DNA of 64,000 nucleotides from Nitrospinota bacterium (GTDB taxonomy: Bacteria > JADFOP01): the NCBI GenBank assembly GCA_022562795.1, contig JADFOP010000005.1, forward strand, positions 1 through 64,000, read 5' to 3'. Of the stretch, positions 5,436-52,514 are shown in pieces; positions within the stretch are counted from its first letter, which is position 1, and every line of letters begins with the position of its first letter. Under the pieces are notes generated by a model. That model saw only the letters and a list, made by a program, of their open reading frames with translations, had not been told where the DNA came from and ran no database searches. Position numbers and translations under genes: made by a program.

Positions 5436-6242
5436 TCAGAAACTCCCCTGCGCCGTTGCGAAATGCGTTATAAGAGCTTCGACCAATCCCTCGACGGTAT
5501 AGCTATCCGCCACCACCGCAGGGGCCAGCCCCGCTCTGCGGGCCGTCTCAGCGGTGATAGGCCCGATGCAGGCTACCGACACCTTGTCAAGAAGCGCCTT
5601 AGAGCCGTGGTCCGCCATAAGCGCCAGGAAGTTGGTCACCGTCGAGGAGCTTGTAAATGCCACGGCATCGATCTCGCTTGCAGCCAACCGCCTGGCGAGT
5701 TCAGCGGCCGGCGCCGAAGGGGGCGCCTCCGTACGGTATGCCTCCACCACGTCGATGATTCCGCCGAGGGCTCGAATCGACTCCGGCAATACCTCCCGCG
5801 CAAACCGTGCCCGGGGAAGGAGTATCCGACTGCCAGAGAAGTTCGTAGGGCCGATGGCCGCTATGATTGCCTCCGCCCTATACTCATTAGGCATGCAGTC
5901 AACGGTCAGCCCCAGGTCCTCCAGGGCCTTGGCCGTCTTGGGGCCGATCGCCGCCAGCTTCAGCCCGGCTAGGGCCTCCGGGCTCTGGGCGCGCTCAGCG
6001 AGGCGTTTAGCAACCGCCTCCACACCCCGGGCGCTGGTGAAGATGCACCATTTGTACGAAGAGATCCGGTCAAGGGCCGTATCGAGCGGCCCCATGTTCT
6101 TCGGCGGATGGATGACGATGGTCGTAAAGCAGACTGCCTCGGCCCCTTGGGCCTCCAAGAGGGAGACGAATGGAGCCGCCTGCTTCTTGGGTCGGGTCAC
6201 AACGATTCGCCGCCCGGCGAGGGGCATGGTCGCTCTCGGCAT
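5436..6242 (-). CDS. hemD: uroporphyrinogen-III synthase
   Basis: A 268-residue HemD. It closes hydroxymethylbilane to uroporphyrinogen III while inverting ring D. The family is poorly conserved, but the opening [20 protein letters not shown], the [12 protein letters not shown] segment and the [11 protein letters not shown] motif near residue 195 are characteristic. It has two Rossmann-like halves and no added methyltransferase domain. It lies between hemC (12 bases before) and hemB (2 bases after). Confidence 0.93.
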
Positions 6243-6254
6243 TCGTAGATTCCT

Positions 6255-7208
6255 CTAGGCCCCCCCCGGCAGGGGGTGGTCCTCCCGGTAGACCTCTTCG
6301 AGAATTGGGCCGGCCCCTTGAGCGAGGAGATCCTCGGCCAGAACCTGGCCTATGGCTAGGGCCTCCTCCAAGGGGCCGGCCCGCTCCCCGTAGAAGATCG
6401 GCTCCCCCCTGGGGTGGCCCACCATGCCACGGAGGACGAGACGCCCCCCATCCACCTGGCCGAAGCAACCAATGGGGACCTGGCAGCCGCCTTCAAGCCT
6501 CTTGAGAAAGGCCCGTTCCGCCAGGACCGTCCGGTGGACGAGGTCGTTGTCGAGGGCCGCCACGATCTCGTTGACCCACCCGTCGTCGCCTCGGGCCTCA
6601 ATGCCCAACACCCCCTGGCCGACGGCAGGCAGCATCAGCTCGGGAGAAAGGATCTCGGATATCCGATCGGCCACCCCGAGCCTATTCATCCCCGCCGCTG
6701 CTAGGATGATGGCATCCAGGCCCTCTTCCTCCAGCTTGCGCAGCCGGGTATCAACGTTGCCCCTCAGGGCTCTCAGGTCGAAATCGACCCGGAGGCGCCT
6801 AAGCTGGACCTGGCGCCTCAGGCTGGAGGTACCGATGACGGCCCCCGTCGGGAGCGACAGCAAGGGGGCTCCGTTGCGGGATACCACTGCGTCACGAGGG
6901 TCCTCCCGATCTGTCATGGCGACGATGGCGAGGCCCTCAGGAAGATCCGTGGGGACGTCTTTCATGCTGTGAACGGCGATGTCAATCCGGCCCGCCATGA
7001 GGGCTTCTTCGATCTCTTTGACGAAGAGCCCTTTGCCGCCGACCTTGGCGAGGGCCACATCGAGAATTTTGTCCCCCGTGGTCGTAATCTTCTCGATCCG
7101 GCAGGCCAGCCCCGTGTGGGCGGCCTCGAGGCGATCCCTTACCCACCCCGCCTGCCACAGGGCAAGTTTACTGCCCCGCGTCCCTATAACAAGTTCACGT
7201 TCGGGCAC
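6255..7208 (-). CDS. hemC: porphobilinogen deaminase (hydroxymethylbilane synthase)
   Basis: A 317-residue HemC that polymerises four porphobilinogens. Visible features are the start ELVIGTRGSKLALWQ, the substrate-binding arginines in GTSSLRRQVQLR (about 128-139), and the dipyrromethane cofactor cysteine in LEGGCQVPIGCFG. Length is normal. It starts with GTG 8 bases after the hemA stop codon, which points to coupling in the heme operon. Confidence 0.97.
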   Translation of the reverse strand: MPERELVIGTRGSKLALWQAGWVRDRLEAAHTGLACRIEKITTTGDKILDVALAKVGGKGLFVKEIEEALMAGRIDIAVHSMKDVPTDLPEGLAIVAMTDREDPRDAVVSRNGAPLLSLPTGAVIGTSSLRRQVQLRRLRVDFDLRALRGNVDTRLRKLEEEGLDAIILAAAGMNRLGVADRISEILSPELMLPAVGQGVLGIEARGDDGWVNEIVAALDNDLVHRTVLAERAFLKRLEGGCQVPIGCFGQVDGGRLVLRGMVGHPRGEPIFYGERAGPLEEALAIGQVLAEDLLAQGAGPILEEVYREDHPLPGGA

Positions 7209-7216
7209 GGGCCGCC

Positions 7217-8479
7217 TCAGCCGAGCCTGAAGAGGCGCCGGGCGATTTCCAGAACTTTGCCTCCCTCTTCACCATCAGAATGCTTCTTCAGGGCTACAAT
7301 GGGGTCGTGCATAATCTTCTTGACTATGGCGTCCGCCATAGCTTCCACGCTTTGGCGCTCCATGTCGCCCATGCTTCCGAGCCTGGCCAGGGTCTTAGCC
7401 ACCTCTTCCTCGCGGATGCGGTCGGCCTTCTCGAGCAATTCAACGATCGTAGGCACTGCATCGAGGGATGCGAACCAATGCATGAAGGTACGAACCTCCC
7501 GCCTTAGAATCTCCTCGGCCTTGACGGCCTCACGCTGGCGCTCCTTGACGTTGGACTCCACCACCGTCTCAAGGTCGTCAATATCATAGCGATAGACGTT
7601 AGCCAACTCATCGACCGCCGGATCGATGTCTCTGGGAACTGCAATGTCGATAAAGAACATTGGGCGGTTTCGTCGGACCCTGAGAGCCTTCTGGACGCTC
7701 TTCTTTGTTATGATGGGCTGAGGTGAGCCGGTGGAGCTGATGACGATGTCGACCTCGGGGAGGCGCTCCTCCAGGCTCTCGAAGGCGACTGCCTCGCCAA
7801 GGAACCCCCGGGCGGTCTCCACCGCTCGCTCGTAGGTCCGGTTGGTCACCAAGACCCGCCCCACCCCGTGGCTCGTCAGGTGCCGGGCAGCCAGCTCGCT
7901 CATCTTCCCCGCCCCTATGATCATGACGGCTCGATCACTTAAGTCCGCGAAAATCTTCTTGGCCAACTCCACGGCGGCGAAGCTCACAGAGACGGCGTGC
8001 GCCGCCACCGCCGTCTCGGTCCGCACCCGCTTGGCCACGTTGAAGGCCCTTTCAAAGAGGTTGTTCAGGACGGGGCCGGTGGCTTTATGTCTCTTCGCCT
8101 CGAAATAGGCCTCCTTGACTTGCCCAGTAATCTGGGGCTCGCCGACAATCATGGAATCAAGGCTAGAGCCCACCCGAAAACAATGTCGGACGGCCTCTTC
8201 ACCCAGGTAGAAGTAGGAGTGGTTCTCGATATCCGCCGCCTCGAGGAGATGGAAGCGGCTGATGAGGTCCCGAATGAGCTCTGGCCTGGCGTACCGGTCA
8301 GAGGCCCGTCCGTATATCTCTACCCGGTTGCAGGTCGAGAGGACGACCGCCTCATCCAGGTGGCACTCCTCGCCGAGGCATTCCAGAATGTTTTTAAGCT
8401 CCCCCGGCGGGAACGCCAGCTTCTCCCGAAACTCAACCGGGGCCGTCTTGTGGCTTACGCCGTATAGGAGAATGCGCAT
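7217..8479 (-). CDS. hemA: glutamyl-tRNA reductase
   Basis: A 420-residue GluTR, the first committed step of C5-pathway heme synthesis. It reduces glutamyl-tRNA to glutamate-1-semialdehyde with NADPH. The catalytic Cys lies in the motif STCNRVEIYG (about residues 48-57). The NADPH domain shows GAGKMSELAARHL near 190. A C-terminal helical dimerisation region follows. No hemL is seen in the window. It lies 30 bases after ccsA, and both are read from the promoter at 9370-9399. Confidence 0.97.
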   Translation of the reverse strand: MRILLYGVSHKTAPVEFREKLAFPPGELKNILECLGEECHLDEAVVLSTCNRVEIYGRASDRYARPELIRDLISRFHLLEAADIENHSYFYLGEEAVRHCFRVGSSLDSMIVGEPQITGQVKEAYFEAKRHKATGPVLNNLFERAFNVAKRVRTETAVAAHAVSVSFAAVELAKKIFADLSDRAVMIIGAGKMSELAARHLTSHGVGRVLVTNRTYERAVETARGFLGEAVAFESLEERLPEVDIVISSTGSPQPIITKKSVQKALRVRRNRPMFFIDIAVPRDIDPAVDELANVYRYDIDDLETVVESNVKERQREAVKAEEILRREVRTFMHWFASLDAVPTIVELLEKADRIREEEVAKTLARLGSMGDMERQSVEAMADAIVKKIMHDPIVALKKHSDGEEGGKVLEIARRLFRLG

Positions 8480-8509
8480 TGGCTTAACGCCTAAGCCCGA
8501 CCGTAGTTC

Positions 8510-9325
8510 CTATTGAAAGGTGTGATAGCCTTTCAACAACAGGCCGACACCCACGAAGGTGAACATTACGGTGCAAAATCCCACGATGTTGAGAAGCGCC
8601 GCCCTGCGGCCGCGCCACCCCGCCGTAAGCCGCCCGTAGAGCAGCACGGCGTATATGAACCAGGTGATGAGGGCCCAGGTCTCCTTGGGATCCCATCGCC
8701 AGTAGGTGCCGAAGGCGTACTGGGCCCAGATGGAGCCGGTTATAATGCCCAGCGTCAGTACGGGAAATCCGAACGAGAGGGCCCGGTAGCCGAGCTCGTC
8801 TAGCGCTTCGAGGCTCGGGAGCCTATAGTAAAAGGCTCCGGGCCTCTTCCTTTTGAGCTGGTGCTCCTGGAGGAGATACATGATGCCGGCCCCGAAGGTG
8901 ACGGCGAAGGCCGCGTAGCCGAGAACGGCAAGGGTCACGTGAATCCCAAGCCACGAGCTTTTTAGCACCGGCAGCAGGGGCCTTACCTCGCTAGGCAGGA
9001 CGGCCGCGTACCCCAGCGTGATGAAGGCAAGAGGCATGACGAATGCCCCTAAAATCTCAATCCGGTATTTGTACTTGGAGATGAGGAAGGCCAGCGTGAT
9101 GGTCCAGGAAAAGAAGGTCATCGACTCGTGGAGGTTGCTGAGCGGGAGGTGGCCCACCGCCTGCGCCCTTAAGATAATCGCGGAGGTGTGAGCGAGGAAT
9201 CCCACCAGGACGAGCGCGGAGCCCGCCGTCCCGACCCTCTTGTTCTTGTAGTAGAAAAAGACGAGGAAGACCACCGCGGCCAGAAAATAAGAAACTATCG
9301 TAATATTAAAGAAGAAAGTGGTCAC
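8510..9325 (-). CDS. ccsA: cytochrome c assembly protein CcsA/CcsB type (system II or CcmC-like)
   Basis: A 271-residue integral membrane protein with about eight hydrophobic segments. The heme-handling WWD-type motif appears as WRWDPKETWALITWF near residue 215, with flanking histidines (for example NLHESMTFF near 64 and WLGIHVTLAV near 127). Proteins of this kind move heme across the inner membrane for attachment to c-type apocytochromes. Its place directly ahead of hemACDB, on the same transcript, is a common arrangement. The start is GTG. A CcsB/ResB partner is not in the window. Confidence 0.88.
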   Translation of the reverse strand: MTTFFFNITIVSYFLAAVVFLVFFYYKNKRVGTAGSALVLVGFLAHTSAIILRAQAVGHLPLSNLHESMTFFSWTITLAFLISKYKYRIEILGAFVMPLAFITLGYAAVLPSEVRPLLPVLKSSWLGIHVTLAVLGYAAFAVTFGAGIMYLLQEHQLKRKRPGAFYYRLPSLEALDELGYRALSFGFPVLTLGIITGSIWAQYAFGTYWRWDPKETWALITWFIYAVLLYGRLTAGWRGRRAALLNIVGFCTVMFTFVGVGLLLKGYHTFQ

Positions 9326-9369
9326 GGCGCATCCCAGGGCTGAGAAGACACAAATAGACTCAACCAGTT

Positions 9370-9399
9370 ATGATAGCCTTGCTCTCAGGGATATGTCAA
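9370..9399 (-). promoter_or_regulatory. sigma70-type promoter of the ccsA-hem operon
   Basis: On the minus strand TTGACA (9394-9399) and TATCAT (9370-9375) are separated by 18 bases. This gives a transcript starting about 40 bases before the ccsA GTG and reading through hemA, hemC, hemD, hemB, the PfkB kinase and rsmD with only small gaps. Confidence 0.7.
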
Positions 9400-9416
9400 C
9401 GGGGCGATGCGGGTTG

Positions 9417-9917
9417 CTAGGCGGGCGTCTCCTGACCAGGTACGGCTTCTTCCTCCCTGCGGCGGCTCTCCTTCAACAGGTCCTGAAGCTCTTCCATGAA
9501 CTCGTTTATATCCTTGAACTGCCGATAGACTGATGCAAAGCGCACGTAGGCCACCTCGTCGGCGGATTGGAGCTCTGCCATCACGGCGTCACCGATGATG
9601 TTGCTCGAGACCTCTCTCTCCCCCTTCTCCTGGAGAAGCTTCTCAATGCGAGAGATCATCTGGTCTCGCTCCTCAATGCTAATGGGCCTTTTTTCGAGAG
9701 CCTTATCAATGCCAGCACGCAGCTTCTCCTTGTCGTAGGGCTCACGGCGGCCATCCTTCTTAGAAATGGCAGGCATCGTTTCCTCGGTCCTCTCGTACGT
9801 GGTGAAACGCCGGCCACAGGCAAAGCATTCCCGTCGGCGACGTATGACATTCCTTTCCCTTGAGACTCGGGAGTCGATGACCTTGTTTTCAAGGTGCGCG
9901 CAGGACGGACATCTCAT
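9417..9917 (-). CDS. nrdR: transcriptional repressor NrdR
   Basis: A 166-residue NrdR, the nucleotide-sensing repressor of ribonucleotide reductase genes. It has an N-terminal zinc ribbon (CPSC at residues 3-6 and [13 protein letters not shown] near 32-44), then an ATP-cone domain (about 49-139). The Lys-Lys-Asp-Gly-Arg-Arg opening of the cone is clear. It binds NrdR boxes in DNA when loaded with dATP. It is last in an rpiB-glyA-nrdR run, and no nrd gene is in this window. Confidence 0.96.
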
Positions 9918-18559: not shown

Positions 18560-20122
18560 TTACGGTGTTCCTCTCGGATCTTCCACCTCCCCGGTGGGCT
18601 TGCGCTGCCAGTAGATTACCTTGTTCACAGCGTTGAGATAGGCCTTGGCGCTCGCCTTGATAATATCTGTCGAGTGGCCGATTCCCGTCGTCGCCTCCCC
18701 GTCGTAGAAGGATACCTTGACGACCACTTCGCCCTGCGCATCCTTGCCGCTCGTTACGGCCCTGATGGAATAAGAGAGCAACCGTCCGGGTATCTCTGTA
18801 ATGCGATCGATAGCTTGGTACGTCGCATCGACCGGCCCTTCACCGATAGCGGCATCTAGGAAAACATCCTCGCCCCGGGAGAGCCGAATCGTGGAAGTCG
18901 GCACCGTATCGGTCCCGCTGCTGGAATGGAGGTAGACGAGCTTAAAGGTCTCCGGCACCGGCAATGTATGGTCACGCATAAGCGCCATCAGGTCTTCGTC
19001 AAAGACCTCCTTTTTCTTGTCAGCCAGGCGTTTGAAGGCTACGAAGGCGTCGTTCAGCGCCCCGTCGTCCAATTGAAAGCCCAGCTCCTCCAAGCGCTTG
19101 CGAAGGGCGTGGCGCCCCGAATGCTTCCCAAGCACCAGATCGCTCTTTAATTTCCCGATCGATTGGGGTGTCATAATCTCGTAGGTGGTGGCATCCATAA
19201 TGACCCCGTGCTGGTGGATGCCCGCCTCGTGGGCGAAGGCGTTCTTGCCCACAATCGCCTTGTTGGGCTGGACGGGAATCCCCGTGATCGAAGTGAGCAT
19301 CTGGCTCGTGCGGTATATTTCGTCGAATTTGATGTTGGTGTAGTGGTGGAGGAAGTCCCGCCGAACCTGTAAGGCCATGACGAACTCCTCCAAGGAGGCG
19401 TTGCCCGCCCGCTCGCCGATTCCGTTGATGGTGCACTCGACCTGTCGGGCTCCGTTTTGAATCGCCGACAGAGAGTTGGCTACGGCCAGGCCCAGATCAT
19501 CGTGGCAGTGGACGGAAAGGACGGCTTGTTCAATATTAGACACACGCTCGCGGATCGTGGCAATACGGGCCCCAAATTCATCCGGCGTAGCATAGCCCAC
19601 GGTGTCGGGTATGTTAACCGTCGTGGCTCCAGCGTCGATGACCGCGGTGAGCACTTCACAGAGGAAATCCATGTCCGTCCGCGCAGCATCCTCCGGGCTG
19701 AACTCCACATCGTCGGTATACTGACGGGCGTGGCGAACCCCGGCCACGGCCGCCTCAACAACCTCCTTAGGGGTCATCTTCAGCTTATGTTCCATGTGAA
19801 TCGGGCTAGTGGCAATGAACGTGTGGATGCGCCCCTGGCGGGCATGCTGGAGAGCTTCCCAGGCACGATCGATGTCCTTCAAGACCACCCGCGAGAGTCC
19901 AGCAATAGTAACCCCGGGGGCATCGACAGTCTGGGCGACGGCCTTGACCGCCTCGAAATCTCCTTCCGAGGCGATGGGAAATCCCGCTTCGATGACATCC
20001 ACCTGGAGCCGTGCAAGCCGGTCGGCCATCTGGACCTTTTCGTCAAGGTTCATACTGAAGCCGGGCGACTGCTCGCCGTCGCGCAACGTGGTGTCGAAAA
20101 TTTTAATGCGTTCACCCTTCAT
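18560..20122 (-). CDS. leuA: 2-isopropylmalate synthase
   Basis: A 520-residue LeuA, the first step of leucine synthesis (acetyl-CoA plus 2-oxoisovalerate). I chose the ATG at 20122 because the protein then starts at [20 protein letters not shown], the normal family start, behind GAGAGGACAAGGACT. Metal ligands are in [11 protein letters not shown] and [14 protein letters not shown]. The [11 protein letters not shown] motif near residue 295 is present. The C-terminal third is the leucine-sensing LeuA dimer domain. Transcription is controlled by a T-box leader read from a promoter inside the pssA 3' end. It is the last gene of an ilvC-psd-pssA-leuA cluster. Confidence 0.96.
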
Positions 20123-20280
20123 AGTCCTTGTCCTCTCTCGTCCCCCGGCCTGAGAGCCGACCGGGAAAAGGTTGATGATTCTACCAAACCCACTTCGACA
20201 ACGCAACCCTAAGGACAGCTTCGGGCGACCGCTTCTCTGGGATGCTCCAGATTGCGCCCATTTGCCCTCCTCTCAATAAG
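20123..20280 (-). other. leuA leader between T-box terminator and start codon
   Basis: About 158 transcribed but untranslated bases lie between the T-box terminator and the leuA start. It has no U-rich structures or open frame of note and ends in the purine-rich ribosome site. Confidence 0.4.
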
Positions 20281-20305
20281 AAAAGCCCTCGTCCCGAGGG
20301 ACGAG
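20281..20305 (-). terminator. conditional terminator of the leuA T-box
   Basis: An intrinsic terminator made of CTCGTCC and GGACGAG arms with a four-base loop, followed on the minus strand by GGCTTTTCTT. Its 5' side overlaps sequence needed for the antiterminator, as in other T-boxes. Confidence 0.85.
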
Positions 20306-20537
20306 AGCAAAGCTCCCGTGGTACCACCCTCTTTTAGCACCCGCGCCTAGCAAGGCGGAAGCGCCCTTCTTTTAGCCCTTGACGCAGGCATCACGGCGCG
20401 AGCTAGACCCTGGCTTAGGACTTCACCCGCGCGGCTCGAGAGGCGAGTTCAGCATGTCCGAGGACCGGCTCCCAGCAACCACCGGCTCTCTGAGCCTCGG
20501 AGTTCCGCCTACTATTCCTCCGTCAACGCCTTTCCTA
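20281..20537 (-). promoter_or_regulatory. T-box riboswitch (leucine) controlling leuA
   Basis: Read on the minus strand, this has all parts of a T-box leader. There is an AG box and distal loop (AGAGAGCCGGTGGTTGCTGG, about 20476-20495). The specifier loop carries GAACTC (20445-20450), whose CTC codon (20445-20447) is leucine. The antiterminator holds the invariant core GGTGGTACCAC (about 20318-20329). The terminator stem CTCGTCCC/GGGACGAG (20288-20305) is followed by CTTTTCTT. Uncharged tRNA-Leu should stabilise the antiterminator and turn leuA on. The specifier fits the gene it controls. Confidence 0.93.
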
Positions 20538-51025: not shown

Positions 51026-51352
51026 TCACCCCTCCTCCTCCCAGGCGGCGAGGCCCCCTTCGAGGACCGAGACTTTGGAAAACCCCTTTTCTCGGATATT
51101 GGCCGCCGAACCGGCGGCCGAGCCTTCGCCCGGTCACGTTCAGTAAAAGACGACGCCCTGCTCGGGGCCCAACACCGAATAGCGTTGGTCGAGCTCCGCC
51201 TTAGGGATCGAGATGGCCCCCGGCAGGCGGTGCTCATTGAAGGACTCAACCTTCCGGACGTCCACGACGACCAGGTCGGCTGCATCTTGCATGAGCGCCC
51301 TAAGCTCCTGGGCGGTAATCCGCGGAACCTGTCCTGCTGTCTCTCCCGTCAC
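51026..51352 (-). CDS. rhodanese-like selenoprotein with two in-frame TGA (Sec-Thr-Sec)
   Basis: A 108-residue single-domain rhodanese if two TGA codons are read as selenocysteine. The GTG start follows AGGAGGTG. Residues 1-70 are normal rhodanese (VVVDVRKVESFNEHRLPGAI, then VVFY). Codons 71 and 73 are TGA (51140-51142 and 51134-51136) with Thr between. The frame then gives PGEGSAAGSAANIREKGF and SKVSVLEGGLAAWEEEG before a real stop. The TGAs fall on the two Cys of the known YC-x-CP-x-E rhodanese loop. Clear homology after the TGAs and a SECIS-like hairpin 21 bases later make a nonsense pseudogene unlikely. It probably acts on sulfur or selenium transfer, or redox. It lies 73 bases after nuoH and is likely co-transcribed with nuo. 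Confidence 0.85.
51101..51119 (-). promoter_or_regulatory. bacterial SECIS-like hairpin in the rhodanese gene
   Basis: On the minus strand GGCCGCC, loop GGTTC, GGCGGCC: a perfect 7-bp stem whose loop starts with GG. The loop begins 21 bases after the second TGA and 27 after the first, within the spacing known for SelB-dependent SECIS elements. It sits inside the coding frame, as bacterial SECIS do. Confidence 0.7.
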
Positions 51353-51425
51353 TCGGAATCACCTCCTTTCGAAACCGTCACTTTCTTAGGATAAAGACCT
51401 ACAGAGATATTTCAGGCAGACCCAT

Positions 51426-52514
51426 CTACAGGCCCTGGAAAGCAATAATAACCACGCCTGTCACCAGGACGTTGATCAGGCCCAAAGGAAGCATGTACTT
51501 CCAGCCGAGCCGCATCAGCTGATCGTAGCGGAAGCGGGGGAGCGTCCAGCGGATGGTCATAAGCAGCCAGCAGAAGAAGACCACCTTGAAGACGAAGGAG
51601 CCCACCTGGAGCAGGACGACGAGCAGGTGGGGCAGGCCGAAAAAGAAGCCGCCGGGGATGTGAAAGCCGTCGGCCAAGAGGAATGGGACCTGCCAGCCTC
51701 CGAAGAAGAGGCTCGTCACTATGCCCGCCACCATCGTAGTCTCGATGAAATCGGCGAACATGAACATGCCCCACTTCATTCCGCTGTACTCGGTGAAGTA
51801 GCCGATGATCTCGCTTTCGCTCTCTGGCAGGTCGAAGGGGATGCGTTTGCTCTCGGCCACGGAGGCGGTCAGAAAGAGGAGGAAGGCGACGGGCTGGACC
51901 ACGACCCCCCACTTCGGGATGAAGCCGAACAGGAGCTCGCCCTGGGCGCGGTTGATCTCGCTAAGCTGGAGGGTATTGAAGACCATTAGTATCCCGATTA
52001 TGGCAAGCCCGAGCGTAATCTCGTAGGAGATAAGCTGGGCCGAGGCCCGAAGGCCCCCCATCAGGGAAAATTTATTGTTTGAAGACCAGCCGGCGAGCAC
52101 AACCCCGTAGATGCCCATCCCGCCGACGGCGAAGAAATAGAGGATGCCCACGTTGAAATCGACGACCTGGAGCGGGATTGCGCGGCTCCCAATGTGGAGG
52201 ACGTCGCCGAAGGGGATGATGGCGAAGGCCACGAGCGGCGGGAAGAAGGCGATGAAGGGGGCCAGGGTGTGAAGAAATCGGTTGCCCCCAGGCGGTACGA
52301 AGTCCTCCTTGGTCATCATCTTGAGCCCGTCGGCGATGGGGTGGAAGAGGCCGATGAGGCGGAATCCGAAGATATCGGCCCTGTTGGCCCCGATGCGGTC
52401 TTGAATGACGGCGCTCTGCTTGCGCTCCACCCACGTCAACAGCCCCGCCACGTTCATGACGAAGCCGATGACAAGCAATACCTTCACCAAGTCAATGGCG
52501 GCGTCGATTATCAT
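51426..52514 (-). CDS. nuoH: NADH-quinone oxidoreductase subunit H
   Basis: A 362-residue membrane subunit at the quinone site of complex I, with about eight helices. Signatures are TWVERKQSAVIQDRIGANRA (about 28-47), FHPIADGLKMMTKEDFVP, and the acid-rich loop DLPESESEIIGYFTEYSGMK. It overlaps nuoG by four bases (ATGA) and is followed by the rhodanese gene. nuoI and the other membrane subunits do not follow, so complex I is coded at more than one locus. Confidence 0.96.
   Translation of the reverse strand: MIIDAAIDLVKVLLVIGFVMNVAGLLTWVERKQSAVIQDRIGANRADIFGFRLIGLFHPIADGLKMMTKEDFVPPGGNRFLHTLAPFIAFFPPLVAFAIIPFGDVLHIGSRAIPLQVVDFNVGILYFFAVGGMGIYGVVLAGWSSNNKFSLMGGLRASAQLISYEITLGLAIIGILMVFNTLQLSEINRAQGELLFGFIPKWGVVVQPVAFLLFLTASVAESKRIPFDLPESESEIIGYFTEYSGMKWGMFMFADFIETTMVAGIVTSLFFGGWQVPFLLADGFHIPGGFFFGLPHLLVVLLQVGSFVFKVVFFCWLLMTIRWTLPRFRYDQLMRLGWKYMLPLGLINVLVTGVVIIAFQGL

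Follow-up and report, generated by a model that had tools for sequence, protein, structure and literature searches.

Introduction

Rhodaneses containing selenocysteine (Sec) have already been described, and the 2026 catalogue, which covers 119 families and subfamilies of prokaryotic selenoproteins, includes five rhodanese forms: UxxS, UxxG, CxU (NF041203), a second UxxG and UxxxxU (TsoB) (PMC13188914). The term 'UxU' does not occur in the text of this catalogue (PMC13188914), and a search of the open-licence literature for UxU together with diselenide and selenoprotein found nothing, deposited unpublished annotations lying outside its scope. The window analysed here, a stretch of 64,000 nucleotides from a Nitrospinota bacterium, carries a short rhodanese gene whose frame is crossed by two TGA codons one codon apart. 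A first-pass annotation made from the DNA letters had proposed that both catalytic-loop cysteines are replaced by Sec, and had called such a protein rare; the rarity holds for the UxU arrangement, but not for Sec rhodaneses as such, which are already catalogued as CxU (NF041203) and UxxxxU (TsoB).

A rhodanese frame with two in-frame TGA codons

The minus-strand frame reads VTGETAGQ...VVFY-TGA-ACG-TGA-PGEGSAAGSAANIREKGFSKVSVLEGGLAAWEEEG-TGA, with 70 codons ahead of the first TGA and 35 beyond the second, exactly as first annotated from the GTG start behind a ribosome binding site (Table 1). The AAAGGAGGTGATTCC of this site is common to a paralogue in the same genome and to the copy in the same-genus genome G002. 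The annotation as a rhodanese was borne out by Pfam, in which Rhodanese (PF00581) matched residues 13-106 of the read-through protein with 62 bits (cut-off 22.2). The gene starts 73 nt after the end of nuoH on the same strand, and its predicted active-site loop is Sec71-Thr-Sec73-Pro-x-Glu. The product is very probably a selenoprotein, a rhodanese of one domain that appears to be cytoplasmic. Leader-like hydrophobic stretches stand at the N-terminus of several CxU copies and of the UxU copy of genome G318 (L045, L046, L048, L059), which are probably exported; the window protein has no such stretch.

Table 1. Features of the rhodanese locus, in positions of the window
Feature	Position	Strand	Remarks
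UxU rhodanese CDS	51026..51352	(-)	GTG start 51350-51352; 108 aa; TGA stop 51026-51028
Ribosome binding site AAAGGAGGT	51361..51369	(-)	Upstream of the rhodanese GTG
First in-frame TGA (predicted Sec71)	51140..51142	(-)	Where rhodaneses canonically have the catalytic Cys; SECIS loop 27 nt downstream
Second in-frame TGA (predicted Sec73)	51134..51136	(-)	Sec position of the CxU family; SECIS loop 21 nt downstream
bSECIS-type hairpin GGCCGCC-GGTTC-GGCGGCC	51101..51119	(-)	Stem of 7 bp; loop of 5 nt with G as its second base
nuoH	51426..52514	(-)	PF00146, 345 bits; last of a co-directional nuoABCDGH run; context only

Reading through the TGA codons of the window yielded no second convincing Sec gene. 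Elsewhere in the window, a leuA-type gene (18563-20272) is immediately preceded by a T-box leader (20294-20535, minus strand; 95.8 bits, just above the gathering score of 93).

The TGA pair is conserved in related genes

A total of 386 genomes were surveyed with NF041203, and the aligned set was drawn from the loci of the 38 genomes with matches at E <= 1e-14. The pair of TGA codons occupies the same two columns in five genes in total, so that these relatives carry TGAs at these places and not sense codons. Besides the window gene, these are the paralogue on contig C20 of the window's genome (71% protein identity; the assembly comprises 84 contigs and is 97.1% complete), the copy in G002, and two copies from outside the phylum, in G034 (42% identical) and in G318. 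In all, only four genomes yielded UxU genes. A scan of genome contigs returned the same-genus record as its sole match, and a scan of viral contigs returned none. At the two loop positions, the aligned set holds five Sec-x-Sec and 12 Cys-x-Sec sequences; of the TGA-free relatives, three are Cys-x-Cys and the rest have other loops. The TGA columns match cysteines of CxC and CxU rhodaneses, and through these relatives the UxU proteins are connected with the known selenoprotein family NF041203 (CxU). The C20 paralogue (L023) has genes for SelO (PF02696) and for a radical SAM protein in its vicinity (8040-9527 and 5727-6689).

Comparison of the window gene with its paralogue gave a dN/dS of 0.15 ahead of the UGAs and of 0.10 past the downstream hairpin, and a dS of 0.10 in the hairpin codons versus 1.54 and 0.90 on the flanking sides, the counts being small, as the hairpin codons offer about 11 synonymous sites. 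By these counts, synonymous change is suppressed within the hairpin, and the sequence on either side of the TGAs is under purifying selection. Between the window gene and the G034 copy (L043), nucleotide identity is 83% from Sec71 through the hairpin versus 49% and 56% outside. The recurrence of the TGAs at the same columns in four further genes, together with the purifying selection on both sides, indicates that the pair is more than a product of chance.

In a tree built from 19 rows, all five UxU sequences group on one branch (support 94/91), which is suggestive, though not proof, of a single UxU lineage; since all five fall on this branch, independent origins are not claimed.

A SECIS-type hairpin in fixed register with the TGA pair

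All 17 Sec-type sequences have a 5-nt loop that begins exactly 21 nt past the second Sec codon, is closed by 4-7 bp and has a G at its second position, and at most 2 bp can form at this register in the TGA-free relatives (15/15). Across the hairpin alignment 97.6% of cells are paired and 13 cells are altered on both sides; the covariation score of 0.409, versus 0.196 in shuffled alignments, was reached in 0 of 500 shuffles, and sliding the partners as a control brought pairing down to 26-62%. The 38-nt hairpin stretch of the window gene has a folding energy of -22.9 kcal/mol (z -2.5). At gathering scores, Rfam reported no SECIS in the window. The published bacterial SECIS model has a spacing of 16-37 nt and a folding energy of at most -7.5 kcal/mol, and the window hairpin agrees with it in loop length, stem length, the G at the second loop base, energy and the distances of 21 and 27 nt to the two codons (PMC13188914). 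Given that both distances lie within the range of the model, one element can serve both UGAs, and we infer that this single hairpin probably does so.

The hairpin keeps a fixed distance from the second codon in the CxU as well as the UxU sequences, which would also suit a reading in which the second UGA alone is decoded as Sec under the hairpin, as in CxU proteins, and the first is either read inefficiently or taken by another near-cognate tRNA, that for Trp, Cys or Arg. We judge this very improbable: 27 nt is within the published range (PMC13188914), and the first TGA exactly replaces a cysteine and has been retained in lineages beyond the phylum, a surprising fate if its decoding were undefined.

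Sec-decoding machinery

The genome of the window encodes tRNA-Sec (selC; anticodon UCA, 77.6 bits) and a Sec-type selD that has an in-frame TGA of its own. A search of the assembly (97.1% complete) for selA and selB found neither, so that of the sel genes the first-pass annotation had proposed to look for, selC and selD are present and the other two were encountered in related genomes. In the same-genus G002 and the same-class G001, selA and selB lie side by side and adjoin scpAB; the scpAB locus of the window's genome (C34:1933-3182) was inspected and selA and selB were not found alongside, a state that fits a gap in the assembly, a relocation of the genes or their recent loss alike. Among the surveyed genomes, all 16 with TGA rhodaneses have SelB, versus 2 of the 12 with TGA-free ones.

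The selD gene is split: profile residues 1-227 end at the start of contig C27 (L079, 1-672), and residues 239-310 are found on C45 (L080), joined to an apparent histidine kinase frame, which suggests a chimeric assembly join. The 3' half of tRNA-Sec with at least 150 bp of downstream sequence is repeated about 14 kb away, with the 5' half degraded (L022, G000:C37, 1708-1950 and 15725-15964). The partial repeats flank a urease and urea ABC-transporter block; the arrangement reflects an island that inserted at selC or else an artefact of the assembly.

In this organism TGA serves as a normal stop codon, with which nuoG, nuoC, the ROK gene and also the rhodanese end. Two in-frame TGAs inside an otherwise open frame might in principle reflect reassignment of the codon to a standard amino acid, but these four stops, the presence of tRNA-Sec, and the Cys or Sec found at the TGA columns in close CxU and CxC relatives make the chance of it practically negligible.

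Another alternative is that the gene is a pseudogene or relic left by a fresh loss of Sec decoding, in which the UGAs now terminate translation and the product is confined to the 70 N-terminal residues. The missing selA and selB in an assembly 97% complete, and the scpAB neighbourhood lacking them, speak for this reading. Both rhodanese copies and selD, however, retain their in-frame TGAs and intact downstream frames, the hairpin is kept in both rhodanese copies, and tRNA-Sec is intact; the assembly of the Sec genes is also visibly imperfect, selD being spread over two contigs. Even were it true, at most one strain would be affected, and the UxU family would stand in G002, G034 and G318. We therefore hold a relic to be very unlikely.

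The conserved TGA pairs, the CxU and CxC relatives, the fixed-register SECIS, tRNA-Sec with a Sec-type selD, and the co-occurrence with SelB together support the original proposal that Sec replaces both loop cysteines. On this comparative evidence we consider it quite likely that positions 71 and 73 are both Sec, directed by the hairpin, the two UGAs being decoded by SelB and tRNA-Sec under one bacterial SECIS element. The UxU loop probably evolved out of a CxU form when one TGY codon upstream of a SECIS already in place became TGA, a codon that this SECIS still reaches; such a single base change suggests a simple path to a second Sec.

Structure model and predicted chemistry

A structure model built from a four-row alignment (pLDDT 82, pTM 0.79) has the rhodanese fold, with Z scores of about 13-18 (maximum 17.7) to solved rhodaneses and to rhodanese domains of persulfide reductases. 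The Sec-x-Sec loop lies between strand 66-70 and helix 77-88, at the site of the rhodanese catalytic loop. In the alignments the putative Sec71 coincides with the loop Cys of the relatives and of BH2092, and it is the predicted nucleophile at the catalytic loop position. The neighbourhoods of 17 rhodanese loci revealed no shared partner and none indicating the substrate. TauE/SafE transporters adjoin the G034 copy and lie about 2.4 kb from the G002 copy, a proximity that points weakly to sulfur.

We propose, tentatively, that sulfane sulfur or selenium would be taken up at Sec71, and that Sec73, which is the most consistently Sec position, might resolve the adduct with release of sulfide or selenide, leaving a Sec-Sec diselenide for thioredoxin-type reductants. 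The protein would then act as a persulfide or polysulfide (or selenium) reductase and not as a classical thiosulfate:cyanide transferase. This two-selenol chemistry draws on general selenol chemistry together with the loop, and we regard it as a fair candidate that is still somewhat doubtful.

A different function, which leaves Sec decoding untouched, would be that of a binding or detoxification site for metals or metalloids (Hg, As, Cd). Two selenolates one residue apart would make a strong soft-metal ligand, and metal binding has been suggested for several uncharacterised Sec families (PMC13188914); but no metal-resistance genes were noticed next to the UxU copies, the TauE/SafE genes near the G034 and G002 copies lean weakly towards sulfur, and the remaining rhodanese fold and loop are retained. 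A metal site thus appears unlikely. As for the broader proposal, a distinct UxU subfamily, present in three or more bacterial lineages, whose members use one SECIS for two UGAs six nt apart and so build a diselenide-forming site handling sulfane sulfur or selenium, we find the case evenly poised.

Comparison with known selenoproteins and rhodaneses

The UxU proteins extend the Sec rhodaneses to a loop with Sec at both chalcogen positions, and provide a natural case in which one SECIS apparently serves two UGAs. The system opens to direct test the reach of SelB and of a SECIS, the persistence of the hairpin through the first decoding event, and what a rhodanese gains from a vicinal selenol pair.

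Prx-like (UxxC/UxxU, PMC9312934) and FmdB-family (UxxU, PMC13188914) proteins also have two Sec close together within a short motif. These double selenoproteins have unrelated folds, and their Sec are three residues apart, whereas those of UxU are two apart.

The classical rhodaneses E. coli GlpE (1gmx), BH2092 (3o3w) and Alr3790 (3ilm) have the fold in common with the window protein (Z 14-16), and their loop Cys aligns with the first predicted Sec. BH2092 differs in having one catalytic Cys, no selenium and no second Sec or Cys two residues further on. GlpE and Alr3790 likewise have one catalytic Cys, and to our knowledge neither contains selenium or a second Sec or Cys two residues further on.

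The best-scoring NCBIfam family for the window protein is NF041203 (rhodanese_LYCAU, 'rhodanese-related (seleno)protein'), the CxU form numbered 3 among the catalogued rhodaneses (PMC13188914). The two have in common the rhodanese domain, the loop position, Sec at loop residue 3 and the SECIS register, but the window protein is predicted to have Sec, not Cys, at loop residue 1 as well, and the two strongest NF041203 members found possess a leader-like N-terminus that it does not have. The UxU proteins score below the equivalog cut-off of 115 bits (73.3 for the window protein, 79.5, 65.8 and 68.7, and 68.1 for the G318 copy), and all five sequences have Sec-x-Sec in place of the Cys-x-Sec motif of the family. 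As they fall outside on both counts, the window protein is filed beside NF041203 and not as a member of it.

TsoB (NF045694, rhodanese/DsbD fusion-like, UxxxxU) is likewise a rhodanese-type protein with two Sec, but it is a fusion of 572 positions with another Sec spacing; in the NF045694 search no match was listed for the window protein, and the G034 copy matched marginally (19.3 bits versus a cut-off of 805). The UxU rhodanese is thus a variant beyond the catalogued Sec rhodaneses CxU and UxxxxU.
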